From contig NC_083513.1 in NCBI RefSeq assembly GCF_032362555.1, forward strand, positions 11,941,001 through 12,005,000: DNA of 64,000 nucleotides, written 5' to 3'. The notes beneath the pieces were generated by a model that made no database searches, was not told the DNA's origin, and was given only the letters and a program-made list of their open reading frames with translations. Both the position numbers and the translations under genes were made by a program. Below, in pieces: positions 16,214-57,382 of the stretch (the first letter of the stretch is position 1; each line of letters begins with the position of its first letter). The stretch is from Amyelois transitella. Its lineage: Eukaryota; Arthropoda; Insecta; Lepidoptera; Pyralidae.

Positions 16214-16249
<36 letters not shown>

Positions 16250-16253
16250 TTTT

Positions 16254-16281
16254 CCCCTGAGTGTTACTCCACACCCAGGGG
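16254..16281 (-). other. 3'-terminal hairpin of G/T1 elements
   Basis: An 11-bp inverted repeat (CCCCTGGGTGT / ACACCCAGGGG in most copies) with a 6-base loop, 5-7 bases before the poly(A). Copies: 26730-26757 (G2, stem interrupted), 29603-29630 (G3), 37657-37684 (T1), 48054-48081 (G4), 51213-51240 (G5), 54436-54463 (G6). In G1 the one stem change gives a G-U pair in the RNA. T2 and T3 lack it. Probably the RT recognition structure. Confidence 0.78.
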
Positions 16282-17005
16282 GAGTTTATTGCAATATCTC
16301 TTTGTTGTATGACAAAGACATTTTCAGACATGATTATATACATTCTGTATGATAAAAACTATGACTTAACCTATTACCTCACCTAGTCTGCTTTATATTT
16401 ATACAATTGATGGGTTCTAAGTCTTATACATAACATAACGTAGTTTTATATACTATTTATTTCTAACATTTGGTTACCAGACAATTTATTTCTATCTTTG
16501 GTCATTTTTGTAATTAACTAACTCACTAAATTTTATGTCGCGTCTTTGCTCTTTTCTTAATATATTTAGATACTGCTTAAAATTTTATAAATCACATATT
16601 GATATTCCTTTATAATTTTTCTTCATTTGTTTATTTTGCATGATTTGCTAATTTTAAGTGTACAATTTAATACCTGCTAGATACCTTGTTAAAGGTATTT
16701 CTTTTATTTATGTACCGTCATTTTATTAAAATCATATTGTTGTCAAGACTTAATTATCTTTGCATTTTAGTACGTTGTTGATGGTATTTCTTTTATTTAA
16801 ATACCGTCATTTTGTTAAAATCCAATTTATGTCAATACTTATTACTATTTTGTATATTACCTTACTTCTAAATAAAACGAATACGAGTCAATTTTTAAAA
16901 TGTATACCTATTTCTACTTAACCACTATAACAGCCTCGTAAAGTCCTTATATTATGTAAACGGATAAAATTATTGCATAAAATTGCACTTCGAGTGTCTT
17001 TGCGT

Positions 17006-17028
17006 CAGCGAATAATGATTATTTGCTG
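17006..17028 (-). other. Covarying stem-loop in G-element 3' UTR
   Basis: A 23-base near-palindrome about 160 bases downstream of the Gag stop. Homologous sites: 27400-27422, 30355-30377, 48722-48744, 52092-52114, 55264-55286. The loop and sequence change, but pairs are kept: G-C at pair 3 becomes A-T, A-T at pair 6 becomes G-C, and A-T at pair 9 becomes G-C in G3. Such compensatory change supports a functional RNA structure. It lies in a longer conserved patch ending GCGGAGCCACC in most copies. Confidence 0.75.
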
Positions 17029-17185
17029 ATGCAGAGACCTATGCACCATTGTTTGCGTAGGGTCACGTCCCACGGCCTACGCGCTCATGTCGCAGCATGC
17101 CCATCTTAATTGCTCTATTAATTTGCACATTATTAATCTAGCAATTGGTGTGCCGCGGCACGCCCGGCAAACCTGAGACCCTGAC

Positions 17186-18583
17186 TCACGCGTATGCAAT
17201 TCTGGACCTGGCGAGAGCCTCCCACCTTTGCCTGACCTGACAGGCGGAGCTGAAGGCGTTGTGATTGTCACTTACCGCTCTTCGGTCTGCCCGGCAGTTC
17301 AGGCACGATGGGACGGCTCCCGCCATCCAGCCTTGACACTCCGACCTCCGATGCTCCCCGCCGCAGTGACTGCACCTCTCGGTTGTCTCCCTGCAATGCC
17401 TCCTGCCGTGGCCGTAGCCCAGGCACATCGAGCACTGGACCAGCGGAGAATAGTCCTCCGCCTGGACCCGCTGCATGTCGATGCGCGCTGAGCCGGCCAC
17501 GACCAAGGTCTTCCACATTTTGGGAGGCACGCTCAGGACAATGTGCTCCAACAGCGGGTTTCGAGCCTTCTTCCTGAACTTAAATTCGATGGCCATGTCT
17601 TCCTCCTTAAGGTTCTCAAATATCTTGCTATTTTGTTGCACTAATTTATCGATTATTTCCTCGTTTTTGTTTTTCATGATAACATTTTTCAAGACAATAA
17701 GGGGGTTCTTGTTATGCACGTCTCTTGCCTGCAACTTCTCTAGGCCATTTATCCTGTTCTTGAGCTTCTCCCTTCCTTCCTTTGTCCTACAGCTTATAAT
17801 GAGCTTCCTGTCCCTTGTTTTCCGTATCTTCTCTATCCTAACCCAGTCCCCGCCCTCTCCCGCCACTTCTCTAATTTGGTCCAGCACCTCGTCACCTGTT
17901 TCCACTCCTGCCTTGTCGTTGACAATAACGGAGTGGTAGGTGACGGATGGTTCCTTCACATTGGCGACGACCTGCGAATACGTTCGGGGCTGCGTACCTG
18001 TGTCTGCTCCTGACTCGGTCCGACTGTTGAAAGCCTCCTTGAGATCCCGTAAGGTCTTTGAGTTCTCTTCCATCCGGTCGGTCAACATCTTCAGATGGTT
18101 CTTGATGTCCCCGATTTTCACTTCTTCCTCAGGAGCAGGGGAAGTCTGCGTTCTCACGCATGGATTTTGACCTGGTGTGAAGTTTTTCAATTCCTGATAA
18201 ATGGCCAGATCACACACCAGGTCGTCCACCACTTTTAACTTTTGGATAACTGAGTCTTTGGTCGTTCGCTTTAATCGAAGCGCCGTTTCGACCTCGTTAA
18301 TGGCAGCTTCCAGGAGGCTTCTGATGTTGCCGCCCAACTTATCCCGATCGTCATCTGTCAAAATCTTCCTCCTGTTTTCCTCTCTTAGGAGCGGGGTTTT
18401 TGGGAAATGTTGTATAAATTTACTCCTGGTTATGGGAGTAGCCCATTCCGCTGCAGGTACACTGGGAGGGGAGTCTGTGAGGGAGGAGTCACTCGGCAGT
18501 TGAGTGGGAGAAAGAATGTTGTCATCGTGGTAGGAAAGTGTCTTTTTAAAAGACACGGTCTTTGGTATTGGGTTAAGAGTCAT
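17186..18583 (-). CDS. Gag-like protein, only ORF of G1
   Basis: A 465-residue Gag-like protein. The N-terminus is Ser/Pro-rich. A conserved motif follows (RSKFIQHFPKTPLLREENRRKIL, about 55-75), then a helical segment with ALRLKRTTKDSV and a variable linker. A conserved domain begins at VNDKAGVETGDEVL (about 235). Three zinc knuckles lie at about 382-450: CSMC...H...C, CSHC...H...C and CLNC...H...C. It ends ...ALARSRIAYA, matching ALARSAVAYC at the end of the T2 ORF1, so it is a complete ORF1 with no ORF2 after it. Likely role: RNA packaging and telomere targeting. Confidence 0.92.
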   Translation of the reverse strand: MTLNPIPKTVSFKKTLSYHDDNILSPTQLPSDSSLTDSPPSVPAAEWATPITRSKFIQHFPKTPLLREENRRKILTDDDRDKLGGNIRSLLEAAINEVETALRLKRTTKDSVIQKLKVVDDLVCDLAIYQELKNFTPGQNPCVRTQTSPAPEEEVKIGDIKNHLKMLTDRMEENSKTLRDLKEAFNSRTESGADTGTQPRTYSQVVANVKEPSVTYHSVIVNDKAGVETGDEVLDQIREVAGEGGDWVRIEKIRKTRDRKLIISCRTKEGREKLKNRINGLEKLQARDVHNKNPLIVLKNVIMKNKNEEIIDKLVQQNSKIFENLKEEDMAIEFKFRKKARNPLLEHIVLSVPPKMWKTLVVAGSARIDMQRVQAEDYSPLVQCSMCLGYGHGRRHCRETTERCSHCGGEHRRSECQGWMAGAVPSCLNCRADRRAVSDNHNAFSSACQVRQRWEALARSRIAYA

Positions 18584-18918
18584 GATTTTTTAAAAAGTAA
18601 ATTTGTATAAGTTGTAAAAGAGATTATGTATATCATAAAAATATGATAAAAGAAAAAACTAAGGTCACGATTTTAAAATAATAAAAAGAAAATTATTTAC
18701 AGTTTCTTATTCTAGGATTGCACGTGTTCTTATGCCTTTACGCAAGGCCTGCAGATCTGGATCTAGATAAATCCAGGAAAATCTTCACAATCCTGTCCAG
18801 CTTGGAGTAGTCCTTGGAAACCAGGTATTTATACCGTGACACTGAGCACTTATGATCACTAATTTTCAACTTAATTTACACAATTTTTTATTTTTCGCAA
18901 TTTTTCACTATTTTTATT

Positions 18919-18968
18919 CACGGAGCGCGTCGGAGCACGTCTGCACTCCACGACGGCTCGAAGCAGAC
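18919..18968 (-). promoter_or_regulatory. Conserved GC-rich 5' leader of G elements
   Basis: The first 50 or so bases of the element are conserved in all five complete copies (also 29434-29484, 50716-50764, 53990-54039, 57333-57381). GTCTGC pairs with GCAGAC 24 bases on, and an inner C-G pair in G1 is G-C in G2. It is the transcription start region, an internal promoter or a processed structured end. These cannot be separated from sequence alone. Confidence 0.6.
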
Positions 18969-19067
18969 GGTTAGGTTAGGTTAGGTTAGGTTAGGTTAGG
19001 TTAGGTTAGGTTAGGTTAGGTTAGGTTAGGTTAGGTTAGGTTAGGTTAGGTTAGGTTAGGTTAGGTT
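18969..19067 (+). repeat. Telomeric (TTAGG)n array
   Basis: About 20 perfect GGTTA units between the 5' end of G1 and the truncated 5' end of a family B copy. Confidence 0.97.
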
Positions 19068-26666: not shown

Positions 26667-26703
26667 TTAGGTTAGGTTAGGTTAGGTTAGGTTAGGTTAG
26701 GTT
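26665..26703 (+). repeat. Telomeric (TTAGG)n array
   Basis: About 8 GGTTA units, tail to tail between S4 (+) and G2 (-). Confidence 0.97.
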
Positions 26704-29484
26704 TTTTTTTTTTTTTTTTTTTAAGTTTTCCCCCAGGTGTTACTCCACACCCAGGGGGAGTTTATTGCCAATCTCTCTCTGTGTGGGTTACAGAGACATT
26801 TTTATACATTTTTATTTGCATTGTATATGATAAACTATTACATTACATTACACTGTCATAGTCTGCTTCTTTTACAATATCTGTTAGAGTTTGTTATTAT
26901 TATTTTCAGTATAATGTTTTTAACACAATTCTATTTTTAACATTATTATTACTATTAAATTAGTAGCTATTATATTATACAACATTTTTATGGCTTTTTA
27001 TTTTATACCTGTATACTATTATTCTTTACAATATTATTTATTATTTTTGTACTAATAAGTGCTGGCAACTAAACCAATAAAATCGAAATATTACTTTGCG
27101 TCAAATAGCGCGATTCGCTAATTGCCACGATTCTCTTTATTATCTACCGTATGGTGTCGTCAATATCTTATAACCAAAGGTTATCACTATTTGTTTATCT
27201 TTAAAATTTGTCATTCTTATAAAGTACCTCACATTAAATTATTCTTATTTTAACGTTATAAAGTTATTATTAAAACATACTTAAATTTTTGTCTTATTTA
27301 TACTTTTGCTACTTATAACCTAATGTCGTCAAGTCAGTTTTAATATAGTTAATATAGCATAAAATTTATATTACATAGCAACTTGGCGTGCCTTCGTTCC
27401 AGCGAATAATTATTATTAGCTGATTCGGAGCCACATGTATAATTTCCGGTGCAAACTGGGTTCAGATTGGTCTCCACGCACGTGCAGCAGCATGCCTAAC
27501 ATCATTGCTTTGCTTAATGGCTTGACATTAACTCGGCAATCGGGGTGCCCTGCACGCCCGGAGAAGCCCCTAGCCCATGTTTACACGTATGTAATCCTGG
27601 ATCTGGCGAGAGCCTCCCACCTTTGCCTGACCTGACAGGCAGAGCTAAAAGCGTTGTGGTCGTAACTCACCTCACTTCTGTCTGCCCGGCAGTTCAGGCA
27701 CGATGGGACGGCTCCCGCCATCCAGCCTTGACACACCGACCTTTTGTGCTCTCCTCCACAGTGGCTGCACCTTTCCGCTGTCTGCTTACACTGGCGTCTG
27801 CCGTGGCCGTAACCCAGGCACATCGAGCATTGGACCAGTGGAGAATAGTCCTCCACCTGGATCCGCTGCATGTCGATGCGCACTGAGCCGGCCCCGACCA
27901 GCGTTTTCCACATTTTGGGAGGAACACTCATGATCACGTGTTCCAAGAGGGGGTTCCTAGCCTTTTTTCTAAATTTAATTATAATTTGTCCATCCTCCTC
28001 CTTTAGATCTTTTATCAACTTACAATTTTGTTGCACTAGTTTTTCGGTAATTTCTTCATTTTTGTTCTTCATTAAAACATTCTTTAAAATAAGGAGGGGG
28101 TTTTTGTTTTCCATGTTTCTCACCTGTAGTTTGGGTATGTTGTTTATTTTTCTTTTTAATTTCTCCCTACCCTCTTCTGTATTACAACTTATAATAACTT
28201 TCCTATCTCTTGTTTTTCTAATTCTTTCTATTCTTATCCACTCCCCACTGTCCTTCGTCGCTTCTCTTATTTGATCCAGCACCTCGTCACCTGTTTCCAC
28301 TCCTGCTTTGTCATTGACAATGACGGAGTGTAAGGTGACGGGTGGTTCCTTCATATTAGCTACAACCTGGGAGTAGGTAAGAGGCTGCGTACTTATGTTT
28401 GTACATGTATCGGTCCGTTTGTTAATCGACCCTTGGAGCTCCTGTAAAACCTTAGAATTCTCTTCTATTTTGTCAGCCAATATTTTCAAACACTTACTTA
28501 AGTCTTCTGTTTTCTCTTGATCTTGAGGGGGGGGAGAGGTCTGCGTCCTTACGCTGGGTCGTTGACCTGGTGTCATATTCTTTAGTTCCTGACAAGCAGC
28601 CAGGTCGCAAATCAGGTTGTCGGCCTCTTTAATCTTTTTTATGACAGAGTCCTTGGTTGTCCTCTTCAACCGCAGTGCAGACTCGACATCTGCCATAACC
28701 TCCTCGAGGATGTCCCTGATGGCGCCACACAATGTGTTTTTATCCTCATCCGTCAGGATCTTACGCCTATACTCTTCCTTCAGGAGCGGCGTCTTGGGGT
28801 AATGATAAATGTACCTGCTCCGCGTATTGGGGGTGGCGAATTCTTCCTCCGAGGATGGCCCGACGGGGGAGTCCGACGGTGAGTTATTTCGGCTATTAAA
28901 TTCTGAAGGCGATATTTGGAAAGCCTCTTGGCAGGTGAGTGTCTTTTTAAATGTCACTGACTTTGGCGTTTGGTTGTGCGTCATGATTTAAAAGTAAAAT
29001 TGTAAAAGTGGTAAAATAAAAGAGTAGAGTACAATATAAAATTAAAAAAGGAGGGAGCTACCTAAGGAAGGCAAAAAACGCCGGTTAGTTATGGTTTAAA
29101 ATATAAGTTTGTAAAAGTTGCAAATATGGGAGGGTATATATTCAGTTTACTGAATAGAAGTAAATTTAAAATGGGAGTCAATTCTTTAAACACTCAGACA
29201 TGGGGTTCTTATGTAAGATGCAAAGGCCCGACTTGGGCGTGGTCACAGTACCGGGAAGTCCACGTGTTCCTTGTATGATCACTACAATCCGGATAAATCT
29301 TGGCAATCCTGGTCCAGCTTCTAGATATTGTTGGGGTCCAGGTGTTGCACAAATATCACCTTCACTAAGAACCACTAATTTTTCAACAAAATAAATTTAT
29401 ACTCAATTAAAGAATTTTTTTTGCAATTTTATTTTTCGGAGCGCATCGGAGCACGTCTGTACTCGACGAGCGCTCGAAGCAGAC
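26702..29484 (-). mobile_element. G2: gag-only TRAS-orientation element
   Basis: Complete 2.78-kb gag-only element: 5' leader (28985-29484), one Gag ORF, an AT-rich 3' UTR of 858 bases (26723-27580) and a 21-base tail. It is the most divergent of the complete copies. Its 3' hairpin is interrupted and its 5' leader has several changes, one compensating. The 27400-27422 stem-loop is present. No ORF2. Confidence 0.88.
27581..28984 (-). CDS. Gag-like protein, only ORF of G2
   Basis: A 467-residue Gag-like protein with the same order as G1: Ser/Pro-rich start, the TRSRYIYHYPKTPLLKEEYRR motif, ALRLKRTTKDSV, a variable Gln-rich linker, VNDKAGVETGDEVL and three C-terminal zinc knuckles (CSMC, CSHC, CLNC). 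It ends ALARSRITYV. Many residues differ from G1, mainly in the linker, while the knuckles and core motifs are kept. The pattern suggests selection on the protein. Confidence 0.9.
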   Translation of the reverse strand: MTHNQTPKSVTFKKTLTCQEAFQISPSEFNSRNNSPSDSPVGPSSEEEFATPNTRSRYIYHYPKTPLLKEEYRRKILTDEDKNTLCGAIRDILEEVMADVESALRLKRTTKDSVIKKIKEADNLICDLAACQELKNMTPGQRPSVRTQTSPPPQDQEKTEDLSKCLKILADKIEENSKVLQELQGSINKRTDTCTNISTQPLTYSQVVANMKEPPVTLHSVIVNDKAGVETGDEVLDQIREATKDSGEWIRIERIRKTRDRKVIISCNTEEGREKLKRKINNIPKLQVRNMENKNPLLILKNVLMKNKNEEITEKLVQQNCKLIKDLKEEDGQIIIKFRKKARNPLLEHVIMSVPPKMWKTLVGAGSVRIDMQRIQVEDYSPLVQCSMCLGYGHGRRQCKQTAERCSHCGGEHKRSVCQGWMAGAVPSCLNCRADRSEVSYDHNAFSSACQVRQRWEALARSRITYV

Positions 29485-29485
29485 G

Positions 29486-29574
29486 GGTTAGGTTAGGTTA
29501 GGTTAGGTTAGGTTAGGTTAGGTTAGGTTAGGTTAGGTTAGGTTAGGTTAGGTTAGGTTAGGTTAGGTTAGGTT
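29486..29574 (+). repeat. Telomeric (TTAGG)n array
   Basis: About 18 GGTTA units between G2 and G3. Confidence 0.97.
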
Positions 29575-37557: not shown

Positions 37558-37624
37558 TTAGGTTAGGTTAGGTTAGGTTAGGTTAGGTTAGGTTAGGTTA
37601 GGTTAGGTTAGGTTAGGTTAGGTT
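37556..37624 (+). repeat. Telomeric (TTAGG)n array
   Basis: About 14 GGTTA units, tail to tail between S5 (+) and T1 (-). From here to the right edge every element is on the - strand. Confidence 0.97.
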
Positions 37625-37625
37625 T

Positions 37626-37656
<31 letters not shown>

Positions 37657-40245: not shown

Positions 40246-40329
40246 GGTTAGGTTAGGTTAGGTTAGGTTAGGTTAGGTTAGGTTAGGTTAGGTTAGGTTA
40301 GGTTAGGTTAGGTTAGGTTAGGTTAGGTT
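40246..40329 (+). repeat. Telomeric (TTAGG)n array
   Basis: About 17 GGTTA units between T1 and T2. Confidence 0.97.
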
Positions 40330-40467
40330 TTTTTTTTTTTTTTTTTTTTTTTGTATTACTCCATTTACCTCGGTCATGGGACAGAGTCTTTGTTTTTTCT
40401 TGATTTAAGTTATCACTTTTATATTTTTATTTACTTTGTTTATTATAAAAAAATTTTATATTCCAAA

Positions 40468-44115: not shown

Positions 44116-44164
44116 TTCGTAAACTTTGGTGGAGTTGGCTACCGTATTATCCCTTATTGCAACC

Positions 44165-45523: not shown

Positions 45524-46332
45524 TATTGCAAATTATAAACAGTACAAAATAATATATCACAAGTTAATATTTATTATCGCGGCGTCTTCCGTAACCTATA
45601 CTCTACTTGCGTATCCTATAGGCAAGGAAAGCACCAAAGACACGTTGAGTTAAAGAAAACAATTTGTGTATATAGTCAATTAATAATTTAAAGTTGAGTA
45701 GTACAAGGGGAGTGCTGCGTTATCAATCAAATTAGATTTAAATTTGTATAGGTTAATTGTTGTTAAAATAAGATTTGTATAAGTTGTATATGGTTAAGAT
45801 TTGTATAAGTTGTATATATTAAGTATACTTAAAAACTAAATTATTGATATTATTCTTATAACTAATGGTTTATTATCCTTTATTTTCAGGTACTTCTTGC
45901 TTCGGATCGTCTGATTAGCCGCAGAAGAATCCAGTCCCTTACAGTAAGTAGAATCCGTACCTTATAACTTAGTCTAAATTTATTTAATTTATGTCACTTT
46001 ATATTTCTGTTTCAGTTCGTTTGTATTCTCTAGGTTCCACTCTTCGAAGCAAGTTAGCTCCCTGAGGAGGTTTTGTCAATTTCCCGTCAAGATATAGAAT
46101 CAATTCTCGACCCACTCCCTTAGCAAATTTTTGAGGATTCAAGACGCCTTTTGGCCCCTAATTGCTACAGGTTTGTATAAATAGGTGGAAAAGGCGCGCC
46201 AATAATTCCCTTAGAGACTATATAACTAGTCTGGAGGGTCAGAAAATAAAAAATAAATTTTTGAATTTTTTCCCTATGAAGCCGAGTTGATGTGCCAAAG
46301 GAGATAAGGGTGGGTGGGCGGGCCGAATTTTT
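45524..46332 (-). other. T2 unique 5' UTR
   Basis: About 810 bases, AT-rich, with no ORF I would accept. It holds the twofold ATTTGTATAAGTTGTA motif, and on the + strand an intron-like segment (45944-46015). Next to the monomer array it has a G-rich box on the + strand (AAGGGTGGGTGGGCGGG), resembled by a box beside the T3 array near 63299. Confidence 0.7.
45890..46015 (+). other. Antisense exon-intron signature in T2 5' UTR
   Basis: On the strand opposite to T2: acceptor TTTATTTTCAG up to 45889, a 54-base possible exon (45890-45943), donor GTAAGT at 45944, and acceptor TTCTGTTTCAG up to 46015. The implied 72-base intron is a normal insect size. It may mark a spliced antisense RNA. Evidence is motif-only. 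Confidence 0.3.
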
Positions 46333-47785
46333 GTCAATTTTTGGAAAAGTTACCAACCGATTTGGCTAATTTTGGTGTCTATCGACGCGGACCGTTAAAT
46401 AGAATGCCGATAGAATGTTATTGGAAAAATTTTGGAAGAAAATTATTGAATTATTATGAAAAAAGTGAAAATTTTTCGGGAAAATCGCTCCCGACGGGAC
46501 AATTTGGTACCTAGCGCTACCGGATTTCGCCAGCAGACGCGGGGCGGGTGTTTATATTTTACTATATATTAATATTTAAATGTCAAGAAGAAAAATTTCG
46601 AGAAATAAAATTTTTTGTTAAATTAATATCGTCTATGTATGAAGTTAATATCAAAATCCCGGAAAATTCGCGGAAAAATCGCAAATACTCAAACGGGATA
46701 GGTGTATTCGTAAATGTCTCGCCGAGACGAACAAAACAACGTGCCACACTTGTATGTTTTTTATAAATTTGATATTATCGATTTGTCGAAATTAACCACC
46801 TTAGGTGGATTTTATGTACCTACGGAATCGGGTGTCGTCAATTTTTGGAAAAGTTACCAACCGATTTGGCTAATTTTGGTGTCTATCGACGCGGACCGTT
46901 AAATAGAATGCCGATAGAATGTTATTGGAAAAATTTTGGAAGAAAATTATTGAATTATTATGAAAAAAGTGAAAATTTTTCGGGAAAATCGCTCCCGACG
47001 GGACAATTTGGTACCTAGCGCTACCGGATTTCGCCAGCAGACGCGGGGCGGGTGTTTATATTTTACTATATATTAATATTTAAATGTCAAGAAGAAAAAT
47101 TTCGAGAAATAAAATTTTTTGTTAAATTAATATCGTCTATGTATGAAGTTAATATCAAAATCCCGGAAAATTCGCGGAAAAATCGCAAATACTCAAACGG
47201 GATAGGTGTATTCGTAAATGTCTCGCCGAGACGAACAAAACAACGTGCCACACTTGTATGTTTTTTATAAATTTGATATTATCGATTTGTCGAAATTAAC
47301 CACCTTAGGTGGATTTTATGTACCTACGGAATCGGGTGTCGTCAATTTTTGGAAAAGTTACCAACCGATTTGGCTAATTTTGGTGTCTATCGACGCGGAC
47401 CGTTAAATAGAATGCCGATAGAATGTTATTGGAAAAATTTTGGAAGAAAATTATTGAATTATTATGAAAAAAGTGAAAATTTTTCGGGAAAATCGCTCCC
47501 GACGGGACAATTTGGTACCTAGCGCTACCGGATTTCGCCAGCAGACGCGGGGCGGGTGTTTATATTTTACTATATATTAATATTTAAATGTCAAGAAGAA
47601 AAATTTCGAGAAATAAAATTTTTTGTTAAATTAATATCGTCTATGTATGAAGTTAATATCAAAATCCCGGAAAATTCGCGGAAAAATCGCAAATACTCAA
47701 ACGGGATAGGTGTATTCGTAAATGTCTCGCCGAGACGAACAAAACAACGTGCCACACTTGTATGTTTTTTATAAATTTGATATTG
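46333..47785 (-). repeat. 504-bp tandem monomers at the 5' end of T2
   Basis: Two complete units (46333-46836, 46837-47340) and a third of 445 bases (47341-47785) cut at the telomere junction. The copies look identical by eye. No protein-coding signal: the small repeated frames inside are identical because the DNA is. Tandem promoter monomers at the 5' end are known in rodent L1 and allow a non-LTR element to keep its promoter through 5' truncation. That role is inferred here. Confidence 0.88.
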
Positions 47786-48024
47786 GGTTAGGTTAGGTTA
47801 GGTTAGGTTAGGTTAGGTTAGGTTAGGTTAGGTTAGGTTAGGTTAGGTTAGGTTAGGTTAGGTTAGGTTAGGTTAGGTTAGGTTAGGTTAGGTTAGGTTA
47901 GGTTAGGTTAGGTTAGGTTAGGTTAGGTTAGGTTAGGTTAGGTTAGGTTAGGTTAGGTTAGGTTAGGTTAGGTTAGGTTAGGTTAGGTTAGGTTAGGTTA
48001 GGTTAGGTTAGGTTAGGTTAGGTT
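47786..48024 (+). repeat. Telomeric (TTAGG)n array, long
   Basis: About 48 perfect GGTTA units. Confidence 0.98.
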
Positions 48025-50764
48025 TTTTTTTTTTTTTTTTTTTTTTTAGTTTTCCCCCGGGTGTTACACCACACCCAGGGGGAGTTTATTGCAATAACAC
48101 TCTATAAGGGTACAGAGACATTGTAAGACGCTATTATTTACAGAATATGTGATAAACTAAAACTTAACTTAATACATCACTTAGTCTGCTTCTTTGTAAT
48201 ACAATAGTGAATTATTAGTCATATACTTATAAAATATAACTTTATACATAACATATTTTTTTTTTTTTTTTTTTTTTTATCAATTATCTTAGTTCCTAGT
48301 TGCAACAATTACAAACATTATTTTCTTACTTGAGTCATTTTTTATCTATTTATAACAATTATTACTATGTATTCACATTCTGTCACGTCTTTGTTATTTT
48401 ACCTAATTTTGTGGTTACTGCTAAATATTCGTTAATCAACTTCGTTTATACTCTTTTATTATTAATGAGCATGATTTGCAATTACTTAGTCATCGGCTTA
48501 ATATGTACAGGGTACTTGTCAAATATTTATCTTACAGCCGTCTTTTATTAAAATTCTACCGTCATTGATTATCATTATTTGGATAAAAATTATCGAGTCA
48601 AAGCTTTTAAAACAGGTATATGTATACTTATAACTACTTAGATACTAAATCACCCAATTAAAATCCCTTATATATAATTATACTATTTTAACACACTATT
48701 GCACTTTATGTGTTTACGCGTCAGCAAATATAAATTATTTTCTGATGCGGAGCCACCTGTGCATTATTATGTGAGCCGAGTCCTGTTTTCCGGTTTTCTC
48801 GCACGTGTCGCAGCATGCCTGTCATTATTGCATAGTTTAATGACCTATCACTCATCAACTTGGCAATCGGTGTGCCGCGGCACGCCCGAGATACCACAAA
48901 ACCCAGACTCACGCGTATGCAATTCTGGACCTGGCGAGAGCCTCCCACCTTTGCCTGACCTGACAAGCAGAGCTGAAGGCGTTGTGATTATCACTTACCG
49001 CGCTTCGGTCTGCCCGGCAGTTCAGGCACGATGGGACGGCTCCCGCCATCCAGCTTTGACACGCCGCCCTCTGGTGTTCCCCACCGCAATGGCTGCACCT
49101 CTCGACTGTCTCCCTGCAATGGCGCCTGCCGTGGCCGTAGCCCAGGCACATCGAGCATTGGACCAGTGGAGAATAGTCCTCCACATGGATCCGCTGCATA
49201 TCGATGCGCACTGAGCCAGCATCGACCACGGCACGCCACATCCTGGGGGGGACGCTTGCCACAACATGCTCCAACAGCGGGTTCCTAGACTTTTTGCGAA
49301 ATTTGACTATTATATTTTTCTCGTCCACCTCCAATTCTCGAATAATTTTGTTATTTTGTTCGACAATTTTTTCTATTATTTCTTTATTGGTATTGCACTT
49401 AATTACATGTTTAAAAATGAGGAGGGGGTTTTTATTTTCGATGTCCTTGACTTCTAGTTTTTCGATGTTATTGATTCTTGCTTTTAATTTTTCTTTACCC
49501 TCTTTTGTTTTACAACTCAGTATTAATTTTCGGTCCCGGGTTTTCCTGACTTTTTCAATTCGAATCCATTCCCCGCCTTCTCCCGCTATGTCCCGTATTC
49601 TATCCAACACCTCGTCACCCGTCTCCACTCCTTTCTTGTCGTTGACAATCACGGAGTGTAGGGTGACGGGCGATTCCTTCGTTGTGGCTGCAATCTGTGC
49701 GTAGGTTGGAGCATGTGTGGATGTACCTGTTCCTGCTTCGCTTCGGTTGTCGATTGACTCCTTAAGCTCCTTTATACTCCTGGAGTTTTCGTCGAGTCGA
49801 ACGACCAGCATGTTCAGGAATTTCGTTATGTCCTCCTGTTTTTCTTGTTTTTCTTGTTTTTCCTCTTCCTGAGGAGCAGGGGAGGTCTGTGTGCGCACGC
49901 TTGGGTTTTGACCCGGCGTGAGATTCTGCAAATCCTGGTAGATTGCTAAGTCACACACCAGGTCATCCGCCTCTCTTAATTTTTGTATGACTGAGTCCTT
50001 AGTCGTACGCTTCAGTCTAAGCGCAGTTTCGACCTCGTTTATAGCTGCTTCCAGGAGATCTCGGATGCCGCGGCCCAGCCTGTCCCTATCGTCATCAGTC
50101 AGTATCTTCCGTCGATTCTCCTCTCTTAAAAGCGGCGTTCTGGGATAGTGCTGAATATATTTGCTTCTTGTTATGGGGGTGGCCCATTCCACGGCAGGTT
50201 CCCTTGAGGGGGAATCCGACAAAGACGAGTCACTCTGAATATGAGTGGGTGAGGGGGTGTCATCCTCATTGTAGTTGAGGGTTTTACTGAAGGTTACAGT
50301 CTTTGGTCTTGGGTTTGTCATGATTTAAAACGTAAATTTGTAAAAGTTGTAAAAGAGATTGAGAATATACAGTATAATGTATAAAATTTTTTTAAAAAGA
50401 TGGGGGTAGGAGTCAATTATTTAAAACAGTATAAAAATAAAATTTTCTTGAAACGATGGATTTCTTATGGTCACGAAGGCCTAACTTAGGGGTTGTCACA
50501 CCAAGAAATCCACTTGCTCACCTTACGTGAGGGTTTGTCCAGATTATATGTCTGGCTCGCCGCAAATCCGGAAAATCCTCTCAATCCTATTCAGTTCTTG
50601 AGGGTTCTTAGTATCCAGGTATACTTGCAGCGACACAGAACACTTTACTACACAAATTTATTTAATTTTATTTAATTTTCACAATAATTTTTATTTTTTT
50701 TTGCAGATTTATTTCGCGGAGCGCGTCGGAGCACGTCTGCACTCCACGACGGCTCGAAGCAGAC
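48023..50764 (-). mobile_element. G4: gag-only TRAS-orientation element
   Basis: Complete 2.74-kb gag-only element: 5' leader (50322-50764), Gag ORF, an 861-base AT-rich 3' UTR (48048-48908) and a 25-base tail. Two extra bases (TG) lie between the 5' end and the telomeric repeat. The 3' hairpin (48054-48081) and stem-loop (48722-48744) are present. A 22-base internal T-run near 48257 looks like a microsatellite. No ORF2. Confidence 0.9.
48909..50321 (-). CDS. Gag-like protein, only ORF of G4
   Basis: A 470-residue Gag-like protein starting MTNPRPKTVTF. Order as in G1: RSKYIQHYPRTPLLREENRR motif, ALRLKRTTKDSV, a linker with a short KQE repeat (about 165-175), VNDKKGVETGDEVL, then three zinc knuckles (CSMC, CSHC, CLNC), ending ALARSRIAYA. 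The N-terminal third is closest to G1. The segment before the knuckles (NTNKEIIEKI, SRNPLLEHVVASVPPRMW) is closest to G3 and G5. Confidence 0.91.
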   Translation of the reverse strand: MTNPRPKTVTFSKTLNYNEDDTPSPTHIQSDSSLSDSPSREPAVEWATPITRSKYIQHYPRTPLLREENRRKILTDDDRDRLGRGIRDLLEAAINEVETALRLKRTTKDSVIQKLREADDLVCDLAIYQDLQNLTPGQNPSVRTQTSPAPQEEEKQEKQEKQEDITKFLNMLVVRLDENSRSIKELKESIDNRSEAGTGTSTHAPTYAQIAATTKESPVTLHSVIVNDKKGVETGDEVLDRIRDIAGEGGEWIRIEKVRKTRDRKLILSCKTKEGKEKLKARINNIEKLEVKDIENKNPLLIFKHVIKCNTNKEIIEKIVEQNNKIIRELEVDEKNIIVKFRKKSRNPLLEHVVASVPPRMWRAVVDAGSVRIDMQRIHVEDYSPLVQCSMCLGYGHGRRHCRETVERCSHCGGEHQRAACQSWMAGAVPSCLNCRADRSAVSDNHNAFSSACQVRQRWEALARSRIAYA

Positions 50765-50766
50765 TG

Positions 50767-51185
50767 GGTTAGGTTAGGTTAGGTTAGGTTAGGTTAGGTT
50801 AGGTTAGGTTAGGTTAGGTTAGGTTAGGTTAGGTTAGGTTAGGTTAGGTTAGGTTAGGTTAGGTTAGGTTAGGTTAGGTTAGGTTAGGTTAGGTTAGGTT
50901 AGGTTAGGTTAGGTTAGGTTAGGTTAGGTTAGGTTAGGTTAGGTTAGGTTAGGTTAGGTTAGGTTAGGTTAGGTTAGGTTAGGTTAGGTTAGGTTAGGTT
51001 AGGTTAGGTTAGGTTAGGTTAGGTTAGGTTAGGTTAGGTTAGGTTAGGTTAGGTTAGGTTAGGTTAGGTTAGGTTAGGTTAGGTTAGGTTAGGTTAGGTT
51101 AGGTTAGGTTAGGTTAGGTTAGGTTAGGTTAGGTTAGGTTAGGTTAGGTTAGGTTAGGTTAGGTTAGGTTAGGTTAGGTTAGGTT
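50767..51185 (+). repeat. Telomeric (TTAGG)n array, longest in window
   Basis: About 84 perfect GGTTA units between G4 and G5. Confidence 0.98.
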
Positions 51186-54039
51186 TTTTTTTTTTTTTTT
51201 TTTTTAAGTTTTCCCCTGGGTGTTACACCACACCCAGGGGGAGTTTATTGCCAGTATACTCTATCAGGGACAGAGACATTTTAAAACATTTTTGCTTACA
51301 TGGTATTTGAAAAGAAAACTATAACTTTACTTAATGCTACACTTAGAGTCTGCTTATTGTACAATTTAAAGGGTTTACATCAATTCAAAACATTATGCAT
51401 GTAGCATTTGTGCAAGTTATATATTATCTATCTTATGTCTAATTTATATACTTATAATACATTCTAGACTGGGTTAACTAGTGCATTTTTCTTATGATTT
51501 ACATAAAATTTATATATGTATATATATATGTATTTGTTTATTTTTATTCCTATATTAATTATATACTTCGAATTACAATGTGCTAATTACATACTTGTCA
51601 CTCTTTCTATTCTAATTGATACTGGTCAATAACTTAATAATTACACTGTATTTTTATGCGTTTGTAACAACATGTCATTAAACAGCATGATTTGCTATTT
51701 CGTTGTCTTTTGCCTAATTTACTATGGTCTTTATTTTTAAAATTTTTGTTTTTACACGTCATTTGGTTAAAATTATTATGCATTATCCTATGTAAAAAGT
51801 CCTACTACTACTCAAAATTGTTCCTTAAATGAACACCACTAATTAGTTACTAATTAAAATTTTTGTATATACATGTGTATACATTTTCGTCATATCTGTA
51901 CTTATTTATAACTATTAACTATTAACACCAAGCAACCATGTCATTATCATTTCTAGTTGTCTTTGTATCACTATAATTTGTTTATTTAATTTATTGCGCT
52001 TACGTGTCTATTATGTACATTTCTTTTTCATTGCATTCATTTATATTTACTGCTAGTTTGCATATAGGACAAACTACACGCGTCTTCGCCCCAACGGATA
52101 TTTACTATCCGTTGATGCGGAGCCACCTATGTATGTTTGTTGCCGCGAAAGCTTTGTTTGACCCCGCATACGTGTCGCAACTTGCCTTGTATTATTGCTT
52201 TACTTGATAATATCAATATTACAATATCGGTTGCCGCGACACGCCGAGAGAATCAGACAATAAGTGCTTACGCGTATGCGATCCTGGATCTGGCGAGAGC
52301 CTCCCACCTTTGCCTGACCTGACACGCGGAGCTAAAAGCGTTGTGATTACTCACCTCGTTTCCGTCCGCGCGGCAGTTCAGGCACGATGGGACGGCTCCC
52401 GCCATCCAGGCCTGGCACACAGCCCTTTGGTGCTCACCCCCGCAGTGGCAGCACCTCTCCACCTTTTCCTTGCAGTGGCGCCTGCCGTGGCCGTAACCCA
52501 GGCACATCGAGCATTGGACCAGGGGAGAATAATCCTCCGCCTGGATCCGCTGCATATCGATGCGCACTGAGCCGGCCTCGACCACTGCTCGCCACATCCT
52601 GGTGGGGACACTCGCCACTACGTGCTCCAGTAGCGGGTTTCGTGACCTTTTCCTAAATTTCACTTCAATCACTTTTTCCTCTTCCTTTAAGTCTTGCAAG
52701 ATTTTTCTATTTTGTTCCGTCAGTTTGTTTAATATGTCTTTATTTGTGTTGCTTTTTAAAATGTTTTTAAAAATGAGGAGTGGGTTTTTGTTATCTACCT
52801 CCTTTACCTGCAGATTTTTAATTTTACTTATTCTATTTTTTAGTTTCTCCCTACCCTCTTTAGTTTTACAACTAATGATTACCTTTCGGTCCCTCGTTCT
52901 TCTCACTCGTTCTATTCTCAACCATTCCCCGCCTTCTTCTGCCACCTCTCTTATCCTTTCCATGACCTGCTCACCAGTTTCCATTCCTCTCTTGTCGTCC
53001 ACAATTACGGAATGTAATGTGAGCGGCTTTCCGAGAGAAGCAGCAACGGCCTGTGCGTATGTCGGGGTATGTGAGGCTATTGTAGATGTTCTTACATCAG
53101 CTTGATTCTGGCGGTCCATTATTTCCTTCATCTCCCGTATACTTCTTGAGTTTTCTTCCAGTTTATCCACCAGCGGTTTTAGGATAGTATTAAGCTCTCC
53201 GATTTGCGTCTCATGCTGTGGGATAGGGGAGGTTTGGGTTCTTATACTCGGTCGTTGTCCCGGCGTCATGTTCTTTATCTCCTGGCACGCAGCCAAGTCG
53301 CACACGAGGTCGTCTACCTGTCTGATCTTGCTTTTAACTGAGTCTTTTGTTATTCTTTTCAGCCTCAATGCAGACTCAACCTCTTCACTGATTGTGTCCA
53401 GGAGATTTCTGATGCTAACACATAGGTCGATTCTGTCATCGTCCGTCAGGATCTTGCGTCTGCTTTCTTCCTTCAGGAGGGGAGTTTTAGGGAAGCACTG
53501 AATGAACCTGCTCCTCGTGTTAGGGGTCGCCCATTCCTCCTCTGAAGACAATCTGACGGGGGAGTCCGACGGGGAGTCACCCTGGCTACTGAATTGAGTG
53601 GGTGATGTTTGAAATGCAATGTGGTCTGTCGGTGTGCCTTTAAAGGACACAGTTTTTGGTGTGCGAATCATGGTCAAGGTTAAAATATAAATTTGTATAA
53701 GTTGTAAATACAGCACTATACTAAGTAAAACGTAAAATGTAAAAGAGTAAATGGATAAAATCGAGAGGGTCAATAATTTAAAACTGTTTTGAAAACCTTC
53801 AAACTTGAGTCACGTGCAAGCCCGAAACGGCAATGCACAGAAATCCAGAAATATCCTCTCGATCTTCGCCCGGCCGCTGAAGTATGATGCAGTCCAGGTA
53901 TTGGTACACTGTTACTGACACTAAGAAACCCTTATTTTTAACTTAATTATATTTTACACTATTTTTCACTATTTTTTACAATATTTATTCGCGGAGCGCA
54001 TCGGAGCACGTCTGCACTCCACGACGGCTCGAAGCAGAC
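51184..54039 (-). mobile_element. G5: gag-only TRAS-orientation element
   Basis: Complete 2.86-kb element: 5' leader (53672-54039), Gag ORF, a 1,062-base AT-rich 3' UTR (51206-52267) and a 22-base tail. Three extra bases (TTG) lie at the 5' junction. The 3' hairpin (51213-51240) and the stem-loop (52092-52114, with the CAACGG/CCGTTG pairing) are present. No ORF2 frame or remnant is seen. Confidence 0.9.
52268..53671 (-). CDS. Gag-like protein, only ORF of G5
   Basis: A 467-residue Gag-like protein. I place the start at the ATG 53669-53671 (MIRTPKTVSFKG) because it aligns with G6; the frame is open 34 codons further, but that stretch is hydrophobic leader translation. Motifs: TRSRFIQCFPKTPLLKEESRR, ALRLKRITKDSV, VDDKRGMETGEQVM and three zinc knuckles with a CCHC variant in the second (CCHC...H...C). 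It ends ALARSRIAYA. First and last thirds are nearly identical to G6. Confidence 0.9.
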   Translation of the reverse strand: MIRTPKTVSFKGTPTDHIAFQTSPTQFSSQGDSPSDSPVRLSSEEEWATPNTRSRFIQCFPKTPLLKEESRRKILTDDDRIDLCVSIRNLLDTISEEVESALRLKRITKDSVKSKIRQVDDLVCDLAACQEIKNMTPGQRPSIRTQTSPIPQHETQIGELNTILKPLVDKLEENSRSIREMKEIMDRQNQADVRTSTIASHTPTYAQAVAASLGKPLTLHSVIVDDKRGMETGEQVMERIREVAEEGGEWLRIERVRRTRDRKVIISCKTKEGREKLKNRISKIKNLQVKEVDNKNPLLIFKNILKSNTNKDILNKLTEQNRKILQDLKEEEKVIEVKFRKRSRNPLLEHVVASVPTRMWRAVVEAGSVRIDMQRIQAEDYSPLVQCSMCLGYGHGRRHCKEKVERCCHCGGEHQRAVCQAWMAGAVPSCLNCRADGNEVSNHNAFSSACQVRQRWEALARSRIAYA

Positions 54040-54042
54040 TTG

Positions 54043-54406
54043 GGTTAGGTTAGGTTAGGTTAGGTTAGGTTAGGTTAGGTTAGGTTAGGTTAGGTTAGGT
54101 TAGGTTAGGTTAGGTTAGGTTAGGTTAGGTTAGGTTAGGTTAGGTTAGGTTAGGTTAGGTTAGGTTAGGTTAGGTTAGGTTAGGTTAGGTTAGGTTAGGT
54201 TAGGTTAGGTTAGGTTAGGTTAGGTTAGGTTAGGTTAGGTTAGGTTAGGTTAGGTTAGGTTAGGTTAGGTTAGGTTAGGTTAGGTTAGGTTAGGTTAGGT
54301 TAGGTTAGGTTAGGTTAGGTTAGGTTAGGTTAGGTTAGGTTAGGTTAGGTTAGGTTAGGTTAGGTTAGGTTAGGTTAGGTTAGGTTAGGTTAGGTTAGGT
54401 TAGGTT
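54043..54406 (+). repeat. Telomeric (TTAGG)n array, long
   Basis: About 73 perfect GGTTA units between G5 and G6. Confidence 0.98.
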
Positions 54407-57381
54407 TTTTTTTTTTTTTTTTTTTTTTTAGTTTTCCCCCGGGTGTTACACCACACCCAGGGGGAGTTTATTGCCAGTATCCTCTATCGTAAACAGAGCC
54501 ATTGCTTAACAATTTTATTTACATTATGTATGAAAAACTAAACTTAACTTAATACTACTCTTAGAGTCTGCTTCTTTTATGCTTGTTAGTTTTTTATATT
54601 ACAACTTTTTATCGTGCAATTTTTTATTTTATCTAATATCTTTAATCTCATTTTTAAAACTAGTTTATTCTTGTTGCCTTTTTTATGTTATCATTATCTT
54701 ATTTTAACAAATTCAACCACTTGTTTGTTGGATTGGTCAGAGCAGTATTACTTTGTAAGTTTCCTTGTCATTATTATGTTTTTTGATTGTTTATTTCTTA
54801 GTTTTTACATTGTCTATCTTATTACATACTTATAATACGAAGCATACGCCGATACTGGTCAATTGTGAATCATAATTATTTACTTGTTTTATCTATGATA
54901 CGCTTGATTTGCTACATAGTTAATAGTTTACTGTAGGGTACATCAAAAATGAATTGTCATTATGTTTAAAATAAATTCTACATTGTATTGTATACGAGTC
55001 ATAATTAAAATAAATCTGTTTTGTTATTAAAACTTACGTTAAATTACGTATTTAAATGTTTGTATACATAGTAATTTTTTATTGCCTTACTCTTAACTAT
55101 TTACCCATCTAGGTCAATTGTCATATACACAAACATGTCCCTTATATATCTATAATCTACATATTTTCTTTTGTCATTTTGTTAAAATCTTGTTACACTT
55201 GTAAAATGATAAAACATAGTAGAAGCATATGAACATATAAACAAACCATGTGTGTCTTCGCTCCAACGGATAATTATTATCCGTTGGTGCGGAGCCACCC
55301 ATGTATTTGTTGCGCAAACATAACAATGGGTATCCACCAACGTGCCGTAGCATGCCTAAAATATTGCTCTAATTAATGACACATTTTCATCAATATAACA
55401 ATGTGGAATAGCCACGACACGCCGGTAAGATCCACAAAATTTATGCTTACGCATATGCTATCCTGGATCTGGCGAGAGCCTCCCACCTTTGCCTGACCTG
55501 ACACGCGGAACTAAAAGCGTTGTGATTACTCACCTCGTTTCCATCCGCGCGGCAGTTCAGGCACGATGGGACGGCTCCCGCCATCCAGGCCTGGCACACA
55601 GCCCTCTGGTGCTCGCCACCACAGTGGCAGCACCTCTCCACCTTTTCTTTGCAGTGGCGCCTGCCGTGGCCGTAGCCCAGGCACATCGAACACTGGACCA
55701 GCGGAGAGTAATCCTCCGCCTGGATCCGCTGCATGTCGATGCGCACTGAGCCGGCCTCGACCACTGCGCGCCACAGCTTGGGGGGAACACTAATTACGGT
55801 ATGTTCTAGCAGCGGGTTTCTTGCCTTTTTTCTAAATTTCACTTCGATAGTTTTTTCCTCATCTTTGATATCCTTAAGTAATTTGCAATTTTGCCCCGTT
55901 AATTTTGATATAACTTGTTCGTTGGTATTTTTTAACATGTTTTTGAGGATGAGTAGGGGGTTTTTATTCTCAACTTCTTTTACCCGCAAATTTTTTATTT
56001 TTTCTATTCTGTTTTTTAATTTCTGTCTACCCTCTTTTGATTCGCAACTTATTATTAATTTCCTATCCCGCGTCTTTCTCACCCTTTCTATCCTCACCCA
56101 ATCCCCGCCTTCTCCTGCCACTTCCCTTATCCGCTCCATGACCACGTCACCCGTTTCCATTCCTGTCTTGTCGTCGACAATAACGGAATGGAGGGTGACG
56201 GGCTTTTCCTGAGAAGTAGCCACGGCCTGTGCGTATGTCGGGGTATGTGAGGCTATTGTGGATGTTCTTCCATCAGCTTGATTCTGGCGGTCCATTGTTT
56301 CCTTCATCTCCCGTATACTTCTTGCGTTTTCTTCTAGTTTATCCACCAGGGGTTTTAGGTACGTTTTAAGTTCTTCGAATTGGGTCTCATGCTGTGGGAT
56401 AGGGGAGGTCTGGGTTCTTATACTCGGTCGTTGTCCCGGCGTCATGTTCTTTGGCTCCTGGCACGCAGCCAGGTCGCACACGAGGTCGTCTACCTGTCTG
56501 ATCTTGCTTTTGACTGAGTCTTTAGTTATTCTTTTTAGTCTCAGTGCAGACTCGACCTCTTCGCTAATTGCGTCCAGGAGATTTCTAATGCTAACACATA
56601 GATCAATTCTATCGTCGTCCGTCAGGATTTTACGTCTGTTTTCTTCCTTTAGGAGGGGAGTTTTTGGGAAGCACTGAATGAACCTGCTCCTCTTGTTAGG
56701 GGTCGCCCATTCCTCCTCTGAAGACAATCTGACGGGGGAGTCCGACGGGGAGTCACCCTGGCTACTGAATTGGGTGGGTGATATTTGGAATGCATTTTGG
56801 TCTGTAGGTGTGTCTTTAAATGACACAGATTTTGGTGTGCGAATCATCATTGTCAAGGTTAAAATATAAATTTGTATAAGTTGTAAAGAAAAAGGACAGA
56901 AATAAATACACTACTGTATACTTAAAGGAACTAAAATATGGAAGGAGGCAAAACGCCAGTCAATTTCTTAAAATCTTAACTATGGACTAGACACGAGGTA
57001 AATAGTGTACTTATACCTAAGAGTGGGTCTCCCAATATTGCACTGCACTTATTTTATGGGCCAGAGCGGCTTTGTCACAACGACCAAGCACATCCACTTA
57101 GTCTTGTTGTTCCGTCTTGTGTGTAGTTGGTTTCAGGCACCGAGCCGTCCCCCAATCTCGAAGTGAAGACAGACTCGTGGCCGAATCCAGTAAAATCCTC
57201 TCAATCCTCGTCCAACCGTAGACGTAGATGGAGTCCAGGTACACTTTATTACGATCTGAACACAAGGGAGCACTTATTTCCACTTTCACTAACTTTGTAC
57301 ACACTTAAAAAATTTTTTGCTTTTAATATTTTGCGGAGCGCATCGGAGCACGTCTGCACTCTACGACGGCTCGAAGCAGAC
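54405..57381 (-). mobile_element. G6: gag-only TRAS-orientation element
   Basis: Complete 2.98-kb element: 5' leader (56851-57381), Gag ORF, a 1,017-base AT-rich 3' UTR (54430-55446) and a 25-base tail. One extra base (C) lies at the 5' junction. The 3' hairpin (54436-54463) and a perfect 11-bp stem-loop (55264-55286) are present. The Gag middle is unlike that of G5 although both flanks match it. No ORF2. Confidence 0.9.
55447..56850 (-). CDS. Gag-like protein, only ORF of G6
   Basis: A 467- or 468-residue Gag-like protein starting at ATG 56850 or the adjacent ATG 56847 (MIRTPKSVSFKD). Motifs as in G5, with the zinc-knuckle block identical to G5 (CSMC, CCHC, CLNC). The preceding block (KKARNPLLEHTVISVPPKLW) resembles G1 and G2 instead of G5, indicating a mosaic. 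It ends ALARSRIAYA with no ORF2 behind it. Confidence 0.9.
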   Translation of the reverse strand: MMIRTPKSVSFKDTPTDQNAFQISPTQFSSQGDSPSDSPVRLSSEEEWATPNKRSRFIQCFPKTPLLKEENRRKILTDDDRIDLCVSIRNLLDAISEEVESALRLKRITKDSVKSKIRQVDDLVCDLAACQEPKNMTPGQRPSIRTQTSPIPQHETQFEELKTYLKPLVDKLEENARSIREMKETMDRQNQADGRTSTIASHTPTYAQAVATSQEKPVTLHSVIVDDKTGMETGDVVMERIREVAGEGGDWVRIERVRKTRDRKLIISCESKEGRQKLKNRIEKIKNLRVKEVENKNPLLILKNMLKNTNEQVISKLTGQNCKLLKDIKDEEKTIEVKFRKKARNPLLEHTVISVPPKLWRAVVEAGSVRIDMQRIQAEDYSPLVQCSMCLGYGHGRRHCKEKVERCCHCGGEHQRAVCQAWMAGAVPSCLNCRADGNEVSNHNAFSSACQVRQRWEALARSRIAYA

Positions 57382-57382
57382 C

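Follow-up and report, generated by a model that had tools for sequence, protein, structure and literature searches.

The stretch of DNA analysed here raises the question whether elements that encode a Gag and nothing else can form a selected, lasting family inside ordinary insect telomere repeats, and, if so, whose enzyme copies them. The window, the whole 64-kb stretch of Amyelois transitella DNA under analysis, contains six such elements, and the common layout that a sequence-only reading had proposed for them is real, all six lying on the minus strand:

16212..18968, minus strand: G1, complete gag-only element, Gag 17186-18583
26700..29485, minus strand: G2, complete gag-only element, Gag 27581-28984
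29571..31287, minus strand: G3, gag-only element, 5'-truncated, last 247 Gag codons open
48021..50766, minus strand: G4, complete gag-only element, Gag 48909-50321
51182..54042, minus strand: G5, complete gag-only element, 467 Gag codons from the homologous ATG, stop at 52268
54403..57382, minus strand: G6, complete gag-only element, 467 Gag codons from the homologous ATG, stop at 55447

As described earlier, all five complete copies have an intact Gag ORF (465-470 codons, counted from the homologous ATG) and a fixed 5' end, a block of about 50 nt that runs GTCTGC...CGCTCCG, and the proteins of G1-G6 diverge widely, with pairwise identities of 64-88%. The poly(A) and 5' ends of the copies are set within GGTTA/TAACC arrays; TTAGG-type arrays of 15-415 bp lie between the elements of the window, with 1.7 kb to the contig end. 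The stretch after the stop has the length given for the 3' UTR (881-1086 bp with poly(A) counted) but is not evenly conserved, alignment being confined mainly to its first ~200 bp and its final ~180 bp. No ORF2 remnant emerged when the regions downstream of Gag in all six copies were searched by tblastn with five ORF2 proteins. The best score, 21.9 bits, lies within the range of top scores from 20 shuffled sets (20.4-26.6 bits), in agreement with the earlier statement that G1-G6 have no RT frame or remnant.

The suggestion that the Gag is under selection is borne out across the host genome (327 Mb, 33 contigs), where scoring covered 90 of the 508 candidates for Gag, 40 of the 162 for the tail and 61 of the 4667 for ORF2. 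The Gag is open in all 30 full-length copies from the window and the genomic loci, and stop-free in 88 of the 90 scored matches, the other two having a stop; one of 13 partial Gags is broken (L028). Pairwise dN/dS among the 30 full-length Gags is ~0.15 (435 pairs), far from the value near 1 that was to be expected of unconstrained copies, and the 17 pairs at dS 0.1-0.5 give 0.103-0.155. Under neutral simulation the mean values were 0.90-0.98 for dN/dS and 7.5-20.2 for stops per pair.

The gag-only state also holds beyond the window. A G Gag precedes 38 of the 40 scored tail matches, leaving two tails without Gag (L006, L031), and the distance from Gag end to tail is 675-968 bp in 37 of these 38 loci. 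At L002, where it is 7.5 kb, a hidden full element was considered and rejected: the insert is an LTR element with 272-bp direct repeats, and its long frame is presumably Bel/Pao-like. No RT match lies between Gag and tail in any of the 38 loci. Twenty-three further sites drawn from the Gag list (14 and 9) gave the tail in 17, a partly masked sequence in four, and neither tail nor RT within about 1.1 kb in two; an ORF2 belonging to the element was found at none. The full-length arrangement that would speak against a gag-only family, ORF2 between Gag stop and tail, was thus seen in 0 of 38 scored loci and 0 of 23 Gag-list sites. One candidate for it, at C25:35387 with an RT 2 kb downstream, was dismissed since a G tail and six TAACC repeats intervene; this RT belongs to a 5'-truncated Q-type element.

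The relatives of the G family can be sought first in the window itself, which has three elements with ORF2:

37621..40245, minus strand: M, chimera with breakpoint at 38045; 5' part ORF2 (RT and RNase H) of Q type, 3' part a G-type tail
40326..47785, minus strand: N, full-length TRAS element, ORF1 44165-45523, ORF2 40468-44115
57703..64000, minus strand: Q, TRAS-like element, ORF1 61543-63084, ORF2 57888-61586, 5' end past the window

Both neighbours, N and Q, have a TRAS1-like endonuclease, that of N scoring 228 bits against the TRAS1 EN (1wdu); Pfam was applied to one plus-strand ORF2 only. The 5' UTR of N has three exact 300-nt copies at a spacing of 504 bp. The relatives of the G Gag are lepidopteran where named, together with N ORF1, to which the complete G Gags are 33-35% identical; such relatives argue against descent from the Jockey clade. 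Tree analysis places the G Gag with N ORF1 and the Gags of Lepidoptera, separate from the Q/H type. When N ORF1 and 57 lepidopteran Gags are included, G is monophyletic at 100/100, in a tree that took every second lepidopteran row and omitted four long-branched rows; in a wider tree of all 118 suitable-length rows with the H and Q rows added, the support is 98. Homologues in other species reach only 29-49% identity in best local alignments (~8000 candidates scored per search), and therefore no member of G was found in another species. G is best labelled, on present sequences, as a family of gag-only relatives of TRAS, that is, a non-autonomous Gag-coding LINE family, and because it forms one clade its gag-only state looks old and of single origin.

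The G copies might instead be debris of recent, independent ORF2 deletions from extant full elements, the constraint on Gag coming only from the parents. Deletion derivatives are common among LINEs, the genome has a second gag-only family, H, that is clearly a relative of Q without ORF2, and the scored matches are only part of the candidates. This explanation is nevertheless highly improbable, as an ORF2-bearing G is absent among the 40 tail matches and the 23 Gag-list sites, the window copies have no ORF2 remnant, and G copies separated by dS >1 are all gag-only and fall within one clade.

The positions and junctions of the copies bear on how they are inserted. G Gags are enriched at chromosome ends, where the 5' end faces outward in all 72 telomere-side matches, but ~14 of 90 matches lie inside chromosomes and therefore the targeting is not absolute. 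Nine interior G copies were fetched, and the six with both ends readable all have target duplications of 11-13 bp (the 11-bp one on C5 was read by eye, not by script), with the junction at AA|C in five and TAA|C in four. In minus-strand elements the 3' junction reads A(n)CCTAACC and TAACC precedes the 5' end, and at their distal junctions the repeats restart in a single phase (GGTTA) in eight of eight cases. The TRAS site in CCTAA lies at the C/T step (PMC7265360), and this single phase is what a TRAS second cut predicts. A terminal extension in the manner of HeT-A, in which G RNA is copied onto the 3' overhang without endonuclease and telomerase re-caps the end, would suit the orientation of the 72 telomere-side matches, and re-capping could give the same distal phase. 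It is an unlikely account, however, because the interior duplications, five of six at AA|C, require a cut, and the phase is equally expected from the TRAS site (PMC7265360). Given these duplications, the probable route of insertion for G is reverse transcription in trans, primed at an endonuclease cut, which sets it apart from HeT-A. A weak observation is that a 12-bp duplication flanks one interior Q-type copy, but not at TAAC.

Two conserved segments of G may serve transcription and copying:

50715..50764, minus strand: 5' block of ~50 nt in G4, conserved (similar in G1, G2, G5 and G6), AGACGTG at +27
54430..54612, minus strand: conserved 3' tail of G6, AATAAA and two hairpins adjoining poly(A)

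The 5' block is a putative internal promoter of the Inr/DPE type, AGACGTG at +27 being compared with the DPE consensus; a known ribozyme or RNA family was ruled out there, as the G 5' end has no Rfam match up to E 5. A tail like that of G6 is present in the other G copies and in M, and is a candidate recognition site for the RT. Its fold has 17 pairs, one with a compensatory change on both sides, which gives modest support. The exact tail pattern had no matches among viral contigs.

The shared tail makes M the main clue to the helper. M matches its Q-type relatives up to 38045 and then has a G-type 3' end; it lacks the C-terminus of ORF2, and ~180 bp of its 3' part have no clear donor. The junction is abrupt and within ORF2, and the 3' end has poly(A) and telomere repeats, for which reasons M looks like a product of template switching. 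It is not itself an autonomous partner of G: its five relatives at 96-99% identity have open 1232-aa frames (a complete ORF2), the ORF1, read in one copy, is of Q type, and the four with intact 3' ends have a Q-type tail, the fifth (L040) running into other sequence before the tail hairpin completes. The helper assignment rests on one chimera, because no autonomous element with a G tail was found among the scored genome matches. It is a substantial possibility, somewhat short of an even chance, that the helper is an N-type TRAS or an unseen autonomous relative of G, and that M arose by unrelated recombination. The G Gag groups with N ORF1 apart from the Q/H type, and the G tail is on neither N nor Q. 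N-type tails, however, differ from the G tail, and the M junction inside ORF2, with poly(A) and telomere repeats, fits template switching in one insertion.

We infer both a specific helper and a telomere role for G, which appears to borrow the copying enzyme of its full-length neighbours. G is likely to be a Gag-coding, non-autonomous TRAS-related LINE of pyralid (TTAGG)n telomeres that is mobilised in trans. Each copy would be transcribed by Pol II from the putative internal 5' promoter, and its RNA translated into Gag, an RNA-binding protein that would coat its own RNA by preference; this presumed cis preference would be the reason that selection keeps the Gag intact. The G ribonucleoprotein would then recruit an ORF2 protein encoded by an autonomous TRAS-type element, most probably one of the Q/M lineage, and this protein would recognise the 3' hairpins and poly(A). 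A nick by the endonuclease in the G-rich strand (GGTT^A) would supply the 3' end from which G RNA is reverse-transcribed, and the phase in which the repeats restart at the 5' end would be fixed by a second cut (CC^TAA). The SART1 proteins are described as mobilising RNA in trans by way of the 3' UTR that it carries (PMC7265360).

The likeness to HeT-A in the sequence-only reading holds in part. HeT-A descends from the Jockey group, is oriented with its 5' end outward and uses the 3' promoter of its neighbour. G resembles HeT-A and the related HTR elements as a telomeric LINE that encodes only Gag, has its 5' end outward and has an RT-bearing relative, TAHRE being the autonomous partner in Drosophila. 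It differs in that its telomere is (TTAGG)n, whereas the HTT (HeT-A/TAHRE/TART) telomere is without short repeats; in that each complete copy has its own conserved 5' block; and in its lineage, TRAS-related and probably not of Jockey descent, and its apparently endonuclease-primed insertion, likely in trans. Nor is the category new, for gag-only telomere LINEs are repeatedly known among the HTR elements of Drosophila, with half elements reported in every group except TART (PMC10088271). The TTAGG setting does appear new; no earlier description of a gag-only family in TTAGG telomeres was found among the open-licence PMC papers searched. In orientation and junction phase in (CCTAA)n G agrees with TRAS, the telomere-specific LINEs of Lepidoptera (TRAS1 in Bombyx), and its Gag is homologous to N ORF1, with which, rather than TRAS1 ORF1, the comparison was made; without ORF2 (EN, RT) and dependent on a helper, it is a non-autonomous relative and not a TRAS element. 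The mammalian HAL1 (half-L1) is not known to be telomere-targeted and belongs to another clade. Like G, it is an ORF1/Gag-only LINE derivative, encoding only ORF1p and with several independent origins (PMC5753468).

Family H and full-length Q have both ends and the Gag in common. Judged by these shared parts, H and Q are a HeT-A/TAHRE-like pair in which Q is the autonomous relative of H; a TAHRE-like partner, with RT, Gag and both ends shared, is thus present for H, while G shares only the 3' tail with the chimera M. A similar relation is described for MoTeR2 of Pyricularia (Magnaporthe) oryzae, a telomere-repeat LINE without RT whose two ends are common to the RT-bearing MoTeR1, but there an unrelated 786-bp sequence, not a conserved Gag, replaces the RT (PMC7367193). 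H mirrors MoTeR2 in sharing both ends with an RT-bearing partner.

Treatments of HeT-A commonly couple it with the fact that flies have lost telomerase. An old gag-only family and a HeT-A/TAHRE-like pair in TTAGG telomeres suggest that shedding ORF2 while keeping Gag needs no loss of the repeats, and the division of labour known from fruit-fly telomeres appears to have evolved separately here inside ordinary telomere repeats. More speculatively, and with considerable doubt, selection may preserve the Gags of both G and H for packaging element RNA for insertion at telomeres by shared TRAS enzymes, and the two families may materially lengthen or protect the ends, as an old HeT-A-like system that arose in parallel to that of flies alongside persisting telomerase-type repeats. 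With autonomous and gag-only elements in one genome, this is a tractable system for asking why Gag is kept, with trans-retrotransposition assays already available for elements of this kind (PMC7265360). Among the genome Gag matches, the G4 protein has 100% identical counterparts on three contigs (C17, C28 and C31).

The window lies at C9:11941001-12005000 of the 327-Mb assembly (33 contigs), and C9 terminates 7.5 kb beyond it, in 1.7 kb of GGTTA repeat. The window is 64 kb of telomere; the G-rich strand of its arrays is the plus strand and the chromosome end is therefore to the right. Plus-strand elements carry ORF1 and ORF2 and a poly(A) abutting GGTTAGG; in the single ORF2 scanned, EN and RT are present and RNase H is absent. 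Minus-strand elements have the poly(A) proximal and the 5' end facing outward. By the sites described in PMC7265360, the former orientation is that of SART and the latter that of TRAS.

Six minus-strand units, G1-G6 (five complete), have a Gag-like frame as their sole ORF. The fixed 5' end noticed in the sequence-only reading proved to be a block of about 50 nt common to the complete copies, GTCTGCTTCGAGCC..GTGCAGACGTGCTCCG, with AGACGTG at +27 in all five. The block fits a candidate internal promoter of the Inr/DPE type. Beyond this block the 5' UTR is less conserved, and no tandem repeats were noticed in G of the kind seen in the 5' UTRs of N, a full-length TRAS (40326-47785; 300 nt repeated exactly at 504-bp spacing, 46333-47640), and Q, a TRAS-like element with both ORFs (57703-64000; 158 nt at 517-bp spacing, 63326-64000). 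Past the Gag stop the copies align over about 200 bp, then drop to background level or close to it, and are conserved in the final ~180 bp, the tail, which contains AATAAA and two hairpins. The RNAalifold structure of the tail has 17 pairs, one changed on both sides, others on one side and a few broken. The predicted Gag model (mean pLDDT 76, pTM 0.44) contains helices, two RRM-like folds and zinc-knuckle loops. Its top Foldseek matches are tandem-RRM proteins and, because E is ~1e-4 and TM-scores are low, this predicted fold assignment is approximate.

With the G6 tail as query, 162 candidates were obtained in the genome, of which 40 were scored and their upstream DNA examined (2 in the window, 20 loci, 4 within loci and 14 further). 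G Gag precedes 38 of these 40 tails, at 675-968 bp in 37; the other interval, in L002, holds an inserted LTR element (L002:1289-7898, in the G 3' UTR) that has a single long frame, presumably Bel/Pao-like, and 272-bp repeats identical to each other. The tails of L006 and L031, both chromosome-interior, have no Gag in the stretch read. At 23 additional sites drawn from the Gag list (14, plus 9 interior), the tail is present in 17, 4 are partly masked, and 2 (L054, L071) have neither tail nor RT. None of the 23 has an ORF2 of its own; among the sites examined, the check for an ORF2 between Gag and tail named at the outset did not refute the gag-only reading.

A G4 Gag query gave 508 candidates, and 88 of the 90 scored matches lack an internal stop. 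Of the 14 further stretches read upstream of tails, 13 contain a Gag end; 12 of these are open over the part read and L028 is broken. All 72 matches within 100 kb of an end have the 5' side outward, 7 of them on contigs for which the calculation had no length. Four of the 18 matches scored interior (C31) fall just past 100 kb in the same orientation, leaving 14. C32 has four interior matches without stops; C31 and C32 exceed their neighbours in numbering in size and, at a guess, could be sex chromosomes. Gags identical to G4 occur on other chromosome ends, at C17:10449669, C28:66438 and C31:13914582, and the last 264 residues are identical at C2:35927-36718 (L034); such copies point to recent transposition or exchange between telomeres.

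The window and loci hold 33 Gag places, 30 of full length, all 30 open. The suggestion that Gag is under selection is borne out by dN/dS, with a median of 0.14-0.17 in every bin of dS > 0.1 (435 pairs; Nei-Gojobori values at dS > 1 are rough, near saturation). The ratio is 0.103-0.155 in 17 pairs at dS 0.1-0.5, with a median of 0.28 in the nine closest pairs (dS < 0.02, few changes). Under neutral simulation the means were 0.90-0.98, a single run falling to 0.65 at the lowest, and pairs acquired 7.5-20.2 stops on average. The 27 distinct G proteins group as one clade when placed in a tree beside 57 lepidopteran Gags and N ORF1 (100/100, the bootstrap being not fully settled). No G member was found outside this genome, the nearest Gags elsewhere being 29-49% identical. 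Since the G copies read are gag-only, the simplest history would be a single old loss of ORF2, with Gag under selection since.

G resembles TRAS in Gag, site and orientation but, lacking ORF2, is not a TRAS element. Like HeT-A it would require a helper, but it sits in another kind of host telomere and appears to differ in lineage and in its route of insertion. Extension of a bare chromosome end in the manner of HeT-A can be judged at interior copies, where target duplications are readable; elsewhere telomere repeats hide them. Both ends are readable in six of nine fetched interior copies, and all six have duplications of 11-13 bp (that on C5 read by eye), the junction reading AA|C in five and TAA|C in four, which argues against bare-end extension. 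TAAC belongs to the telomere motif on the strand concerned, and the duplications indicate insertion by an endonuclease of TRAS type with its first cut at GGTT^A. In the window, the arrays distal to minus-strand elements all restart in one phase (8 of 8 junctions). The endonuclease would act in trans, because G codes for no such enzyme; SART1 proteins mobilise a reporter RNA in trans if the SART1 3' UTR is present, according to PMC7265360.

The helper may be traced through the chimera M (37621-40245), a 5'-truncated element. M was at first read as an autonomous partner of G, its last 134-186 bp matching G tails at 78-83%; this was ruled out, as its ORF2 ends before the C-terminal zinc domain and its relatives have Q-type features. 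Five elements elsewhere, each with an open frame of 1232 aa, are 96-99% identical to M in ORF2. Their 3' ends agree with M until the break, three at 100% and two at 93-94%, and beyond it all five run into the C-terminus that M misses. Four have a Q-type tail; in L040 a different sequence takes over before the hairpin of the tail is complete. The one 5' side that was read bears a Q-type ORF1 (80%). M breaks at 38045, following a run of 52 or more identical bases. Beyond that point it matches the 3' ends of G: some 215 nt align at 77% with a C19 stretch lying 0.8 kb downstream of a G Gag, and the other ~180 nt match only in patches. The simplest reading is one template-switching event, in which reverse transcription would have started on G RNA at a telomere repeat and then switched over to RNA of Q type; G and Q-type RNAs and one RT would then have been in the same reaction. 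On the strength of this one chimera, the helper of G would most likely belong to the Q-type lineage.

A second gag-only family, H, was found in the fetched loci, where a Q-type Gag (506-512 aa) stands alone at seven places.

Units of the H family
L010:3126-6059, Q-type Gag without ORF2
L010:6565-9483, Q-type Gag without ORF2
L011:2674-6601, Q-type Gag without ORF2
L014:4077-6457, Q-type Gag without ORF2
L016:3256-6179, Q-type Gag without ORF2
L020:3220-5627, Q-type Gag without ORF2
L017 near 3824-5359, Q-type Gag, the unit entering a masked stretch

Six of the seven units, 2.4-3.9 kb long, lie between two arrays, and a search for ORF2 in the units gave no match up to E 1. H and Q have 5' UTR monomers of ~515 bp in common, are 75-76% identical in ORF1 nucleotides and 71-74% in the last 144-215 bp, and have dN/dS of 0.06-0.18 among them. 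The relation of H to Q parallels that of HeT-A to TAHRE, a gag-only element beside an RT-bearing relative. The gag-only state therefore probably originated two or more times at the telomeres of this genome. A further TRAS lineage (L018, C25:19300-29200, at 3-4560, and L016:6490-7115; ~46-54% to N) has a long stable 3' hairpin, and part of its tail resembles by eye the tails of plus-strand elements (GTTTTAG..GGTA..GTC.GGCAC).

Half elements are a kind already known, of which G is a fresh instance. Several that have lost pol occur at Drosophila telomeres (PMC10088271); the half-L1 HAL1 retains ORF1 alone (PMC5753468), and MoTeR2 has both ends in common with MoTeR1 and lacks RT (PMC7367193). The consulted parts of three insect telomere papers describe TRAS and SART in Lepidoptera and do not mention half elements there (PMC12036569, PMC13338207, PMC4700185).

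Nearest the contig end on the arm that holds the window is again a G-like element (L035, C9:12005001-12012500, at 5001-5780), preceded by 5 kb of masked sequence; it has the 5' block and the opening ~125 residues of Gag, 51-60% identical. Five minus-strand matches to Rfam mir-3389 (5578-5643, 8463-8528, 14611-14676, 25071-25136, 35926-35992; E 2e-10 to 1.3e-9, under the family's gathering score) lie antisense within ORF2 of plus-strand elements, and the miRNA family itself could be a fragment of a retrotransposon.
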